A stretch of 44,960 nucleotides of DNA from Bacillota bacterium (GCA_012841305.1 DUVA01000141.1:1-44960); one strand, 5' to 3'. Counted from the first letter of the stretch, positions 39,938 through 44,960 are shown. Program-made: numbers and translations. Notes: generated by a model not told the origin, from the sequence alone.

Positions 39938-41926
39938 ATGAATTATGAAGAAGCCATAGCCTTTCTGCGGGAACTCGGCAAGTTCGGCATACATGTAGGC
40001 CTTGAGCGAAGTGTTGCCTTGTCGCGGGAAACCGGTAACCCTGAACAGAGCTTCTCCATAGTGCACGTGGCAGGCACCAACGGAAAAGGTTCAGTGTCTG
40101 CTATGATTGACTCTGTGCTCAGAGCCGGTGGTTTTCGCGTTGGCCTTTATACATCTCCGCATCTTTCGTCCTACAATGAGCGAATTCGGGTCGGGGGGCG
40201 CTCAATTCCCAAAGCAAGATTAGCGGAGCTAATGACCGAATTAAGACCTGTTTTCCAGAAAATTGCGGGGGACCCTGAACTGGGCCCCCCAACTGAGTTT
40301 GAAATGGGAACCGCACTTGCTTTTCTGCATTTCGCCTGTGAGAAGGTGGATTTTGCCGTAGTTGAGGTGGGACTTGGTGGCAGGTTGGACTCAACTAATA
40401 TAGTAATGCCGAAGGTTTCAGCGATTACAACCATCAGCTTGGAACATACAGGTATACTTGGGAACACGCTGAAGGAAATCGCCCGAGAGAAAGCGGGAAT
40501 CATCAAACAAGGTGTCCCGGTTGTTGTGGGACGTCAAGATCCCTCTGCCCTCCAAGCGATAGAGGAAACAGCAGCCATGAAGTCTGCACCTGTAACACTG
40601 TTCGGCAAGGACATAGAGTTACACAGGAAGTCCAAATCCGTGGAGGGACAGTCCTTCTCAGTGAAGGTCGGAGACCGCATCTATGACTCCCTGGAGATTC
40701 CCCTTATTGGGGCACACCAGGTCGACAATGCGGCTGTCGCAGTAGGTGTCATAGACGCCTTGCGGCAACTAGGGGTAGATATAGGGGAAGGACAGCTCAG
40801 AACCGGGCTTAGGCTTGTATCATGGCCTGGAAGACTCGAGATACTACAACGGCGGCCGCTCGTTTTGGTTGACGGCGCCCATAATCCGGACGGTGTCAGG
40901 AGACTCCGGGAGGCAATTCCCGAGATAGTCGGTAAACGGCCTGTTACTGCCGTGGTCGGTATATCCCGGGATAAGCCGGTTCAGGAGATGGTATGTGAAA
41001 TCTCAAAATTCGCCGATTCCTTCATTGCCACAGAAGCGTTATCATCAAGGAGCGGTATGACAGACCCTTATCAGCTTCTGGAACTTGCCGAGAGAAACGG
41101 GGTTCCGGCTAAGGTTGTAAGCAATCCGTTGGAGGCTGTAGACAAAGGGCTGGGAGAAGCAGGGGACAACGGTGCGTTGGTGGTCTCGGGATCCATCTAC
41201 CTTGTGGGTAATGTGCGCAGGCACCTTTTGCAGACGGCAGGGGAATTTCCTATGAGCCACAGAGTAGTGATATTCGTCGGCGCTTTTGGGTCCGGGAAGA
41301 CTGAGGTTGCGCTGAATTTCGCAAAACACTTGCAGGCGCCTGGCAAGGAAGTTGCCATCGTTGACTTTGATATTGTGAATCCATATTTCAGATCCCGTGA
41401 AGTTGCTTCAGTTATGAAAGACCTTGGGATAGGCGTCATCTCGTCCAGCCCCGGCCTGGAGGCTGCTGATCTGCCGTCAATTTCTCCTGCCGTACTCCGG
41501 GCTTTTCAAGATCCCGCACTTCAAGTAGTGTTTGATGTGGGGGGAGATCCTGTAGGCGCTAAGGCGCTTTCCGGGTTCAGACGGCAATTTAAGGCTGCAG
41601 GTTATGATATGTATTTCGTGGTAAATGCGAATCGCCCTTTTACTCAGGATGTAGCAGGCGCTTTGGCGATGCTTGAATCAATTGAGAGAGCATCTCAGCT
41701 TTCTGCAACAGGGATAGTCAGCAATACCCACTTGGGCAAAGATACCAAACCAGAGGATATCCTGAGAGGAATAGAGATTTCTGAGTCCCTTGGCAGAGAG
41801 CTGGATCTTCCTTTGGTATTTGCATGCGCCGGGCCTGATATAGCTGAGAGCGTCGGAAATTCCCTCGGGACCAGGCTGTTGACACTTGATCTTCATATGC
41901 GTCCTCCTTGGGAGCGGATCTCTTAA
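39938..41926 (+). CDS. folC: Folylpolyglutamate synthase fused to a P-loop ATPase
   Basis: 662-residue fusion. Residues 1-430 are FolC (adds glutamate to folates): VHVAGTNGKGS (P-loop, 46-52), EVGLGGRLDSTN, and DGAHNPDGV near 312, ending with the usual SGSIYLVGNVR. Residues 439-662 are a SIMIBI-type ATPase: Walker A GAFGSGKT, VAIVDFDIVNPYFRSRE and VFDVGGDP. That ATPase is usually a separate protein. No stop codon separates the two, but ATG 41252 at the junction is preceded by AGGGGA at eight-base spacing, so a separate ATPase may also be made by internal initiation. AAGGAG precedes ATG 39938. Confidence 0.93.
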   Translation: MNYEEAIAFLRELGKFGIHVGLERSVALSRETGNPEQSFSIVHVAGTNGKGSVSAMIDSVLRAGGFRVGLYTSPHLSSYNERIRVGGRSIPKARLAELMTELRPVFQKIAGDPELGPPTEFEMGTALAFLHFACEKVDFAVVEVGLGGRLDSTNIVMPKVSAITTISLEHTGILGNTLKEIAREKAGIIKQGVPVVVGRQDPSALQAIEETAAMKSAPVTLFGKDIELHRKSKSVEGQSFSVKVGDRIYDSLEIPLIGAHQVDNAAVAVGVIDALRQLGVDIGEGQLRTGLRLVSWPGRLEILQRRPLVLVDGAHNPDGVRRLREAIPEIVGKRPVTAVVGISRDKPVQEMVCEISKFADSFIATEALSSRSGMTDPYQLLELAERNGVPAKVVSNPLEAVDKGLGEAGDNGALVVSGSIYLVGNVRRHLLQTAGEFPMSHRVVIFVGAFGSGKTEVALNFAKHLQAPGKEVAIVDFDIVNPYFRSREVASVMKDLGIGVISSSPGLEAADLPSISPAVLRAFQDPALQVVFDVGGDPVGAKALSGFRRQFKAAGYDMYFVVNANRPFTQDVAGALAMLESIERASQLSATGIVSNTHLGKDTKPEDILRGIEISESLGRELDLPLVFACAGPDIAESVGNSLGTRLLTLDLHMRPPWERIS

Positions 41927-41996: not shown

Positions 41997-42545
41997 ATGC
42001 CGGAGCGAAAAACCAGATCCAAGGAGCAATCCATATGGCTTGTGTTGGTATGGGTCGTGACTCTTGCAGCCATGGTAGGACTTGGTGTCTTGCTTGGTAA
42101 GTATGTGTTGAGTTATTGCGCATCGTCTTTGCAGACGCCACGGTCCAGCCAGACCCCGACAACCAAATCGACTTTAGCAGGTAGCAATGACTCACAAAGT
42201 GGCGGAATGTCAGCATCTCCGATTTCTCCCGGGTCACAGCATGTGCCAACCGCGACTCAGCCGGAAGAGCCGGATGTTACTGCTCACGGAACGACAGAGA
42301 CTGCGTCAGGAACAGGTGGGTTGACAAGCGAGTCTGTCCTTTACAAAGTCCAAGTGGGAGAGTTCTATGACAGAAGTGAAGCAGAGAAAGTCGGCCGTGT
42401 GCTTGAAGGAGCAGGATATCCTGTTTTCATTACGCCTGGGACACCACATAGGATTCAAGTAGGCGCATTTCAGAACAAAGCTAACGCTGATTCCCTTAGA
42501 GAAGAGTTGGAAGCTAAAGGGTATTCTGTGGTCATCCAAAGATGA
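41997..42545 (+). CDS. SPOR-domain membrane protein
   Basis: 182 residues: a basic cytoplasmic start, one transmembrane helix (LVLVWVVTLAAMVGLGVLLGKYVL at about 14-37), a Ser/Thr/Pro-rich linker (about 45-110), then a SPOR domain (about 113-182, SVLYKVQVGEFYDRSEAEKV and HRIQVGAFQNKANADSLREEL). SPOR domains bind glycan strands lacking stem peptides, often at the septum or in spore cortex. ATG 41997 follows AAGGAGGG. The residues are well formed for a functional domain. Role unknown, plausibly cell-wall or sporulation related. Confidence 0.88.
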   Translation: MPERKTRSKEQSIWLVLVWVVTLAAMVGLGVLLGKYVLSYCASSLQTPRSSQTPTTKSTLAGSNDSQSGGMSASPISPGSQHVPTATQPEEPDVTAHGTTETASGTGGLTSESVLYKVQVGEFYDRSEAEKVGRVLEGAGYPVFITPGTPHRIQVGAFQNKANADSLREELEAKGYSVVIQR

Positions 42546-42576: not shown

Positions 42577-42960
42577 GTGCAACTAAGGGATGTAGCCAGA
42601 ATTCTTGAGGCGGAAGTCCTGACATGCGAGGATAAGCTGGATCTTACGGTTGAAGCAGGTTGTGGGTGCGATCTCATAAGTGACATGTTAGCGTTTACGA
42701 AAGAGAGGATGATTGTCCTCACCGGGTTAGTATCGCCGCAAATTATCCGTGCGGCGGAGATGGTAGATCTTGTTGCTGTTGTCTTTGTTCGCGGCAAGCG
42801 GCCTACTCCTGACATTATCGAATTGAGTAATGAATTAGGCCTCCCAATCATGTGCACGCATTATCCGTTGTATGAGTCAGCCGGCCTTCTGTTTACTGCA
42901 GGCTTGCCCGGCTGGCGGCATTGGCCGCGTGCTGTGGGAGGAGCAAAGGATGCACCTTGA
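42577..42960 (+). CDS. DRTGG-type domain protein (first copy)
   Basis: 127-residue soluble protein resembling the DRTGG domain found in HprK, PTA and CBS-associated proteins: GCGCDLISDMLAF, IVLTGLVSPQIIRAAEMVDLVAVVFVRGK, and LPIMCTHYPLYESAGLLFTAGL. The typical ending after the last motif is replaced by a Trp/Arg-rich tail that overlaps the next gene. GTG 42577 follows GGAGGGT. Its neighbours are a GHKL ATPase, an [FeFe]-hydrogenase-like protein and a second DRTGG protein, so I infer a shared sensory role. Confidence 0.85.
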   Translation: MQLRDVARILEAEVLTCEDKLDLTVEAGCGCDLISDMLAFTKERMIVLTGLVSPQIIRAAEMVDLVAVVFVRGKRPTPDIIELSNELGLPIMCTHYPLYESAGLLFTAGLPGWRHWPRAVGGAKDAP

Positions 42961-43378
42961 GTACCATGTTGTGGGAAGGGACTTTCAAGCTGCAGGAGGG
43001 GCAGCGGCAAAGATTAAAAGGACGCTCCGTCAGATAGGCATAGACGCAGAAACCGCCAGACGCGTGGGCATAGTAGCGTATGAGGCAGAGATGAACATAG
43101 TGATACACGCCTACCGCGGCACAGTCGGTATAGACATATTACCTGAACGAGTCAATATCTATGCTGATGATGAGGGTCCGGGTATTTCTGACATTGCCTT
43201 GGCAATGCAGGTGGGATACTCTACAGCTCCTGAGGATATCAGGGAGATGGGATTTGGGGCCGGCCTGGGCCTTCCCAACATGAAACGGTATTCTGACGAG
43301 CTTGAGGTGGAGTCGCAAGTAGGCTCCGGGACGAGTATTAGAGCAGTGATAAACTTACCGACGAAAGAAGGAAGTTGA
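42950..43378 (+). CDS. GHKL ATPase, RsbW/SpoIIAB-like anti-sigma factor family
   Basis: 142 residues from ATG 42950 (GGGAGGAG upstream; the frame extends to 42872 without support). N box EMNIVIHA (47-54), G1 box DDEGPGI (73-79) and G2 box GFGAGLGL (101-108) define the Bergerat ATP fold. In this family such proteins are serine kinases of anti-anti-sigma factors or bind sigma factors; here no sigma or STAS gene is adjacent. Overlaps the first DRTGG gene by 11 bases and ends 2 bp before the hydrogenase-like gene. Confidence 0.9.
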   Translation: MHLEYHVVGRDFQAAGGAAAKIKRTLRQIGIDAETARRVGIVAYEAEMNIVIHAYRGTVGIDILPERVNIYADDEGPGISDIALAMQVGYSTAPEDIREMGFGAGLGLPNMKRYSDELEVESQVGSGTSIRAVINLPTKEGS

Positions 43379-43380
43379 TC

Positions 43381-44730
43381 ATGGGCCAGTTATTTCACTC
43401 AGTCTTGCTGATCGAGGAGAAGTGCCGTGGATGCACCAGGTGCATCAAGAACTGCCCGACTGAAGCTATTAGAGTGAGAGCCGGCAAGGCCAGGATCAAC
43501 GCAGAAAGATGCACTGATTGCGGTGAGTGTATCAGGACTTGTGATAACCACGCGAAAACGGCTATTACGGATTCACTGTCCAGGTTGAAAGACTTCGAAC
43601 ATGTCATTGCTTTACCTGCTCCTGCCTTATTTTCGCAGTTCGGCAGGGAAGTTGACCCTCAAAGAGTGTTAGCCGCGCTCATAGACATTGGATTTGATGA
43701 TGTCTTCGAAGTGGCTTATGGCGCAGATATAGCTACTTTCCTGACTGTAGAGTATCTCAAAAGAAGGCGCAAGAGAGGGCCTGCAATTTCTGCTGCATGT
43801 CCCGCTGTGGTAAGACTGATTCAAGTTCGCTTTCCTGCATTGATAGACTGCCTGATTCCGGTGGATTCACCTATGGCCTGCTCAGGCAAGCTTGCCAAGG
43901 AGATAAAAAGCCAGGAGCTTGAGATCCCCAAAGAGAACGTCGGTGCTTTCTTCATTACTCCGTGTCCTGCAAAAGTGACTTGGGTTCGTGAAGCTAACAA
44001 GCTTGGGACTTTTCCCGTAGACGGCGCCATATCCATCTCTGATGTCTATGGAGAGATTTCGAAAAGGCTTCCTGAGGTTTCGCCACCTTATCCTAAACTC
44101 AAAGCATCACCGACAGGAGTGGGTTGGGGGCGCTCCGGGGGGGAGCGTATTGCAGCCAGGATCGCCAAGAGCCTTGTGGTGGATGGAATACACAATGTCA
44201 TAGACGTTCTGGAGCAATTGGAAATGGGCAAGTTGCCTGACATAGAATTCGTGGAAGCGCAGGCATGCATAGGGGGATGCGTCGGCGGGGCTCTGACTGT
44301 ACTCAACCCGTTCATAGGCCGGATGAATTTGGAGGCTCTTGTGGATAAATCAGAGACGCCTCCTAACTTGTTTGAGGAGCTTGACAAAGGTTTTAATCTC
44401 CGGAATCGCCTCGGTGAGTTTGCGATACAACCTGATATTGTGGCAGTCCCTGCTTTCAGGCTTGATCAAGATGTGTCTCGGGCTATTACCAAAGCTGAGA
44501 TGATAGAGAAGGTAGTCAGCGAGCTGCCTGGGCTCGACTGCGGTTCGTGTGGCAGCCCGCACTGTCGCGCACTGGCTGAGGATATTGTTCAGGGATTGGC
44601 AGTTGACACTGACTGCGTCCTTAAACTGCGCGAGGAAATTGAAATCCTTGCTGAGCAGCTCCTGGAAATGGCAAAGAAGAGCCCACCTGCTCTAAAGGAG
44701 AACGATACTTTCTCAAAGCCTGGGGAGTGA
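43381..44730 (+). CDS. [FeFe]-hydrogenase-like iron-sulfur protein, probable sensor
   Basis: 449 residues. N-terminal 2[4Fe-4S] ferredoxin (Cys15/18/21/25 and 44/47/50/54), then an H-cluster-like domain: SAACP (Cys140), ITPCPAK (Cys195, Lys198) and EAQACIGGCVGG (Cys296, Cys300), and a C-terminal Fes cluster motif Cys387/390/395/412. The four H-cluster ligands are kept, but Ala139 replaces the proton-relay Cys299 of CpI, Thr193 the Met of the MPC motif and Trp201 the Glu361. This fits a regulatory rather than fast catalytic protein. Start ATG 43381 has AAGGAAG six bases upstream; TTG 43375 is also open. C-terminal tail ends without a PAS domain. Confidence 0.9.
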   Translation: MGQLFHSVLLIEEKCRGCTRCIKNCPTEAIRVRAGKARINAERCTDCGECIRTCDNHAKTAITDSLSRLKDFEHVIALPAPALFSQFGREVDPQRVLAALIDIGFDDVFEVAYGADIATFLTVEYLKRRRKRGPAISAACPAVVRLIQVRFPALIDCLIPVDSPMACSGKLAKEIKSQELEIPKENVGAFFITPCPAKVTWVREANKLGTFPVDGAISISDVYGEISKRLPEVSPPYPKLKASPTGVGWGRSGGERIAARIAKSLVVDGIHNVIDVLEQLEMGKLPDIEFVEAQACIGGCVGGALTVLNPFIGRMNLEALVDKSETPPNLFEELDKGFNLRNRLGEFAIQPDIVAVPAFRLDQDVSRAITKAEMIEKVVSELPGLDCGSCGSPHCRALAEDIVQGLAVDTDCVLKLREEIEILAEQLLEMAKKSPPALKENDTFSKPGE

Positions 44731-44734
44731 TGGT

Positions 44735-44960
44735 ATGAGTCATCAGGTGAGGGTGCGAGATATTGTAAACGAGCTGGGGTGCGAAGTAGCAGCCGGCCGA
44801 GGGTGGTTGGACAACCAGGTATCATTTGGGTACTCGTCAGATCTTCTGAGCGATGTCATGGCAGGCGCCGGGCCGGGCGATGTCTGGATTACTGTGCAGA
44901 TACACCAGAATATCGTCGCTGTCGCAAGCCTTACGGGCGTTTCCGCAGTTGTAGTGGCAG
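44735..44960 (+). CDS. Second DRTGG-type domain protein, partial at window edge
   Basis: About 75 codons are visible from ATG 44735, with GGGGAG seven bases upstream. The sequence shows VRDIVNELGCEVAAGR, then FGYSSDLLSDVMAGAGPGDVW and ITVQIHQNIVAVASLTGVSAVV, the same DRTGG pattern as the gene at 42577 with an N-terminal difference. It runs off the right edge. Lies four bases after the hydrogenase-like stop. Confidence 0.85.
   Translation, partial: MSHQVRVRDIVNELGCEVAAGRGWLDNQVSFGYSSDLLSDVMAGAGPGDVWITVQIHQNIVAVASLTGVSAVVVA

Follow-up and report, generated by a model that had tools for sequence, protein, structure and literature searches.

The stretch of DNA analysed here (the window) is 44,960 nucleotides long and spans contig C64, one of 278 in a MAG, from end to end. 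Four closely spaced genes on the plus strand occupy its 3' end. DRTGG-1 (DR1; 42577..42960; 127 amino acids, GTG start) is a stand-alone DRTGG domain recognised by Pfam. GHKL1 (42950..43378; 142 amino acids) is a SpoIIAB/RsbW-like ATPase matching Pfam HATPase_c_2 with 39.5 bits. HydS-D (43381..44730; 449 amino acids; Fer4, Fe_hyd_lg_C and FeS domains) is a putative sensory [FeFe]-hydrogenase of Group D (M2e). The last gene, DRTGG-2 (DR2; 44735..44960), is represented by its 5' part of 75 codons, truncated because the window is the whole of contig C64. The first-pass annotation had described four tightly packed genes at this position, and all of them are present, with small corrections to their boundaries. 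The most likely GHKL1 start is the ATG at 42950, which has a ggagg just 5' of it and creates an 11-nt overlap with DR1. Given this packing, co-expression of the four genes is very likely. A gene for a SPOR-domain protein (41997..42545, plus strand; SPOR, 48.4 bits) ends 31 nt 5' of DR1; it was recovered by phmmer in 16 loci only and is probably a neighbour, outside the module. Also 5' of the module, a single 662-aa frame (39938-41926) combines a FolC-type Mur ligase with a ParA/P-loop NTPase domain, and the same apparent fusion is seen in the related loci L010 (662 aa) and L012 (667 aa).

The operon of the window very probably continues on another contig of the same MAG, C117, which carries the remainder of DR2 followed by genes for a PHP protein, a second GHKL ATPase (GHKL2), RseC, a [2Fe-2S] protein, HydC, HydB, HydA and Rex. 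The overlap between the ends of C64 and C117, about 29 bp, contains mismatches, and the join was for that reason made by way of L010, a near-identical genome whose locus is 98% identical over the Group D protein; the mismatches read as strain variation within the MAG. Full-length DR2 in L010 (11355-11717, 120 aa) matches DRTGG with 25.8 bits, marginally over the cut-off, while the 75-codon fragment alone matched no Pfam family. The downstream PHP and hydABC genes that had been predicted from the window were found in L010 and relatives as well as on C117. The genes hydC, hydB and hydA all lie downstream on C117 and in L010-L013, as in operons of bifurcating group A enzymes, and HydA of relative L012 belongs to group A6 by model NF040763 (897.9 bits, above 765). 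The usual order is DRTGG-ATPase-Group D-DRTGG-PHP-second ATPase-hydC/B/A, often with Rex. In most relatives the module lies 5' of hydCBA or is embedded in it, and HydB is present in 46 of the 52 loci whose downstream sequence reaches 7 kb or more. The PHP metal ligands and the ATP motifs of GHKL2 are conserved across relatives. In this lineage a gene for an RseC/MucC-like membrane protein (PF04246, 83 bits; L010 13106-13573, and C117) follows GHKL2 and precedes the hyd genes.

Both small proteins are DRTGG domains, DR1 by profile and predicted fold and DR2 by the profile match of its full-length relative, which agrees with the original reading of two DRTGG proteins flanking the other two genes. 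DR1 matches Pfam DRTGG with 35.3 bits (cut-off 25.2), and its AF2 model (pLDDT 96.7) has as best fold matches the solved DRTGG domains of AF1212 (TM 0.83) and the C. perfringens CBS-DRTGG protein; a DRTGG sequence search of the PDB matched nothing. In 54 DR1/DR2 proteins, residues D32, S35 and T49 never vary. A role for DR1 as a STAS-like antagonist was ruled out, its predicted fold being that of DRTGG. GHKL1 appears to be an ATP-binding protein: E45, N49, D74, G76, G78, G101, G103, G105, G107 and T128 are invariant in 81/81 proteins.

The iron-sulfur protein, for which an H-cluster-like site had been proposed, proves to be a Group D homolog with the cubane cysteines present, and it has each testable sequence hallmark published for that group. 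Its Pfam architecture, without PAS, is Fer4, Fe_hyd_lg_C and a C-terminal FeS domain, and it has the Group D plan of two N-terminal 4Fe-4S motifs, an H-domain and a C-terminal Cx2Cx4Cx16C motif. The last of these, formed in the window by C387, C390, C395 and C412, is found in 110 of 117 relatives. The cubane cysteines are C140, C195, C296 and C300, accompanied by K198. Diagnostic residues were taken as defined in PMC8163306 and PMC10407848. The position of the proton-relay cysteine C299 is alanine (A139 in the window; alanine in 70/81 proteins), and that of M353 is threonine (T193; serine or threonine in 72/81). The Group D proton path, E252, S249, D265 and E289 in TamHydS, corresponds with the published spacings to E255, S252, D268 and E292; of these, E255 is conserved in 79/81 proteins and D268 and E292 in 81/81. 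Equivalence to TamHydS was set by spacing because insertions shift the numbering, and the best relative fits the published numbering at 10/18 positions. Profile scores are bimodal, with full-length Group D proteins at 428 bits or more and the PAS-type group at 207 or less. In a tree that held two group C rows only, both of them long branches, and no row for the named TamHydS sequence, 26 HydS-D relatives fall on one side of a branch with 100/98 support, apart from group A and C. In three loci the Group D gene is broken by a stop or frameshift and the rest of the module is retained (L137 in G001, L136 in G091, L155 in G063).

The first-pass annotation had made its module depend on co-occurrence of the genes across genomes, and this was found. 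Among 250 genomes of the phylum, a Group D protein occurs in 92, the GHKL1 family in 98 and both in 91 (Fisher p 1.5e-58, shared ancestry ignored), so that 91/92 Group D genomes carry GHKL1. The association is also one of position, since 90/99 GHKL1 copies lie within 300 bp of the Group D gene, with a median gap of 34.5 bp. In the related loci, retrieved with the iron-sulfur protein alone as query, DR1 and GHKL1 lie directly 5' of the HydS-D gene in 80/80 cases, and a DRTGG gene lies 3' of it in 71 of these 80, some of the others stopping at contig ends. One copy of the module (L024) sits in a contig labelled Armatimonadetes, which may be an inter-phylum transfer or a binning error.

Gene fusions were read from the DNA, and representatives were verified with Pfam. 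DR1 is fused to GHKL1 in seven loci (L105, L106, L111-L114 and L128, the DRTGG part of L128 being seen by the custom profile only), GHKL1 to HydS-D in one (L127) and HydS-D to DR2 in two (L107, L115). On the GHKL1 tree, the DR1-GHKL1 fusion takes two changes to explain, and 0% of bootstrap trees recover it as arising once. Further downstream, custom profiles alone show PHP sharing a frame with GHKL2 in five loci (L150, L157, L161, L163, L198), and GHKL2 doing so with the [2Fe-2S] protein in L177. Very long GHKL frames were retained as fusions only where Pfam verified a second domain; the others were start-codon artefacts. Because each adjacent pair of the four-gene chain is fused somewhere, DR1, GHKL1, HydS-D and DR2 probably form one complex. 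The fusions support proximity and do not bear on the direction of signalling. Of the proposed passage of a signal from sensor to ATPase to DRTGG protein, physical association is argued for by the fusions; the anti-sigma identity of the ATPase did not stand at ortholog level.

On balance, the conserved operon whose 5' part lies in the window probably encodes a sensor-switch complex that serves electron-bifurcating NADH/ferredoxin enzymes. In this model HydS-D would be the input. Where maturases exist it would report H2 or the redox state of electron carriers by means of an H-cluster, and elsewhere perhaps by its iron-sulfur clusters. It would act in a complex with GHKL1 and the two DRTGG proteins, the state of the sensor altering the binding of GHKL1 to a DRTGG partner, or the phosphorylation of that partner. 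The PHP phosphoesterase, perhaps with GHKL2, would reset or relay the switch, and the switch would tune the synthesis or the activity of the co-encoded HydABC. The Group D sequence identity, the constant neighbourhood, the fusions of gene pairs and the intact ATP-binding and PHP metal-site motifs are observed; complex formation, H2 or redox sensing, the direction of the signal, phosphorylation, PHP as eraser and the output are inferred.

What HydS-D senses is the point at which the strongest alternative departs. It assumes a redox sensor without H2, in which HydS-D uses its iron-sulfur clusters to report ferredoxin/NADH poise, an H-cluster being unnecessary or missing in vivo, and all else works as in the sensor-switch model; we think this reading unlikely but give it real weight. 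The genome under study has HydF and HydG, so assembly of an H-cluster is possible. K198 is the lysine that, judging from structures of group A enzymes, should contact the cyanide of [2Fe]. HydG was found in 63/92 Group D genomes, and K198 is kept in 64/64 intact HydS-D proteins from HydG-positive genomes, this one included, against the redox-only reading. In HydG-negative genomes it is replaced in 5/29 proteins, the five keeping the four cubane cysteines, and one more protein is broken. The association of K198 with HydG has p = 0.003, uncorrected for relatedness, and three of the five changed proteins are one family. As K198 changes only in HydG-negative genomes, a native H-cluster is suggested where maturases exist. 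TamHydS, moreover, has a working H-cluster after artificial maturation (PMC8163306), and its C-terminal cluster is not reduced at 1 atm H2 (PMC13104023), both of which speak against sensing by iron-sulfur clusters alone.

The redox-only reading draws its support from Group D lineages that appear to have no HydG. In the family of three just mentioned (f29; G028, G174, G224), K198 and E255 are both replaced by glutamine, D268 being unchanged in the alignment, while every intact protein in the comparison retains the four cubane cysteines. HydS-D is the sole PF02906 protein of this family, and HydG was not found. The same holds for G155, which is of the genus of the window, and G104: both retain HydS-D without HydG or HydA, and their H-cluster residues look intact, so residue conservation is no proof of an H-cluster. 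The operon of G155 (L146) is otherwise collinear but has no hydA between hydB and rex. On the other side, HydG was called absent from MAGs, and a group A HydA is present in several further HydG-negative genomes, so the call may be leaky, HydG perhaps being partly missed or lying in missing sequence. We regard these HydG-less lineages (G155, G104 and f29) as a lead.

Variation in the operon bears on a further alternative, which we consider distinctly unlikely: that the GHKL ATPases, DRTGG proteins and PHP protein assemble or protect the HydB/HydC-type flavin/iron-sulfur complex and sense nothing. In seven operons (L145, L148, L160, L164, L166, L200, L136) a NuoG-like formate dehydrogenase replaces hydA beside hydB/hydC and the same module, so that the module accompanies HydB/HydC even where the catalytic end is different, as an assembly factor would. 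These genes, two of them supported by Pfam, carry an in-frame TGA in HCARL*HAPTVAGLA or a close variant, which is read as selenocysteine. Some modules that lack a Group D gene lie near rnfC-type genes, which have a NuoF-like domain in common with HydB, again as assembly would predict. The opposite arrangement also occurs, however: DR1, GHKL1 and HydS-D stand alone, with no HydB found downstream, in L039, L043, L086 and others. A hydrogenase-like member would also be superfluous for assembly, and the two CBS domains that Pfam finds on GHKL1 in some Group D-less modules resemble sensory input.

These modules come from seven genomes in which DR1 and GHKL1 occur with no detectable HydS-D (the copy in G237 is near a contig end), and HydS-D is thus not obligatory for the module. 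Loss of the Group D gene through loss of [FeFe] hydrogenases was ruled out, as other PF02906 proteins persist in all seven genomes, and HydG in most. The idea that CBS domains strictly substitute for the Group D protein likewise failed: both occur in L020, and neither in L133-L135. The CBS calls rest on Pfam, a custom CBS profile having also labelled plain GHKL proteins (L128, L138, L139).

A classical partner switch, in which GHKL1 sequesters a sigma factor encoded elsewhere, is quite improbable. It is favoured by the nearest solved relatives of GHKL1 in sequence and fold, SpoIIAB (the fold was examined on a relative's DR1-GHKL1 fusion), and by RsbW, also among its best relatives. Yet GHKL1 scores 57.5 bits against the spIIAB model, whose equivalog cut-off is 135, and 25.2 and 19.9 bits against RsbW models with cut-offs of 145 and 155.05. 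It is, on these scores, SpoIIAB/RsbW-like and not an anti-sigma ortholog; of the original description as an anti-sigma-type ATPase, the GHKL fold and ATP-binding motifs stand, and the ortholog-level match does not. Among the downstream genes scanned in L010/L012 there is no sigma factor or STAS gene, and the constant partner has a DRTGG fold, not STAS. Since no such gene is among the scanned neighbours, post-translational control or another regulator is as likely as sigma control. Finally, it is highly improbable that HydS-D serves HydABC as an alternative electron-transfer subunit or is simply a further catalytic hydrogenase: its conserved H-domain, iron-sulfur clusters and place in the same operon would fit, but its proton-relay cysteine is alanine, the Group D enzyme that has been characterised turns over very slowly (PMC10407848), and the fusions seen are to GHKL and DRTGG only, none to HydA, HydB or HydC.

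The variants lead us to a broader proposal, offered tentatively and as possible rather than probable. It assumes a DRTGG-based, SpoIIAB-like switch with interchangeable sensors on the ATPase, either a hydrogenase-like protein or CBS adenylate domains. Such a switch would serve HydB/HydC-type bifurcating machines with a hydrogenase or a selenocysteine formate dehydrogenase end, and in some lineages the hydrogenase-like sensor would have lost its H-cluster and act as a plain iron-sulfur redox sensor.

The first-pass annotation spoke of uncharacterised synteny, which is fair, although parts of it were already published (PMC3561251, PMC3608648, PMC8163306, PMC4237134). The position of Group D genes beside kinases and bifurcating hydrogenases was noted in PMC3561251 and PMC3608648, most of the present genes appear in a Halanaerobium operon listing (PMC4237134), and the interaction partners of Group D proteins, whose biochemistry has been studied with a view to H2 sensing, were called unidentified in 2026 (PMC13104023). 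The DRTGG pair and the fusions are likely new: no paper found by keyword in the open-access literature named them, and searches for DRTGG or PHP together with hydrogenase were mostly empty. Near-invariant adjacency and the fusions, which suggest pairwise contacts among the four proteins, nominate GHKL1 and the two DRTGG proteins, plus PHP and the second ATPase, as candidate partners of the Group D protein. If the sensor-switch model is true, hydrogen or formate metabolism in many fermentative Bacillota, among them gut and rumen lineages, would be adjusted to redox state by a switch with a non-STAS partner. The variants linked to formate dehydrogenase, linked to CBS domains or devoid of HydG raise the question whether "H2 sensor" suits the whole family as a name.

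The best-studied counterpart of HydS-D is TamHydS of Thermoanaerobacter mathranii, which binds an H-cluster after artificial maturation and combines low activity with an increased affinity for H2 (PMC8163306); its secondary structure is reported to change with H2 (PMC13104023). The two proteins share the PAS-less domain plan, the Cx2Cx4Cx16C motif, alanine for C299, serine/threonine for M353 and the proton path E252/E289/S249/D265 (PMC8163306, PMC10407848, PMC13104023). Both genes lie 5' of a bifurcating hydrogenase and beside a histidine-kinase-like ATPase. The TamHydS papers name no partners and give an AraC-type flanking gene, whereas here the neighbours are two DRTGG proteins, a SpoIIAB-like ATPase, PHP and a second GHKL protein, linked by fusions. 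The PAS-type sensory [FeFe]-hydrogenases of Group C (M2f), such as TmHydS (PMC10055695), are likewise putative H2 sensors with Fer4, H-domain, FeS and alanine at C299. Unlike HydS-D, they have a fused PAS domain and form a separate clade. The genome under study also has such a protein (contig C174 of G000; L008, L091); its gene adjoins one for a group A HydA, and a gene for a SpoIIE phosphatase follows a short way 3'.

The Halsa_1862-1871 operon of Halanaerobium hydrogeniformans (PMC4237134) resembles the present one in having an anti-sigma-type kinase, an Fe-S hydrogenase-like protein, PHP, NuoE, a histidine kinase, a ferredoxin-like protein, an NADH dehydrogenase and hydA; there the genes are only listed, with DRTGG unnamed and neither a function nor a cross-genome comparison given. 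The partner-switching kinases SpoIIAB and RsbW share the fold and ATP-binding motifs of GHKL1, which differs in falling below their ortholog cut-offs, in its DRTGG-fold partner and in the lack of a STAS or sigma gene among the scanned neighbours. The DRTGG fold itself recurs in the CBS-DRTGG region of a clostridial pyrophosphatase (PDB 3l2b, 3l31). Here there is no pyrophosphatase, and the domains are on separate proteins together with a GHKL ATPase; where CBS domains are fused to GHKL1 (L020, L129-L132), the CBS and DRTGG set of the clostridial enzyme is recreated.
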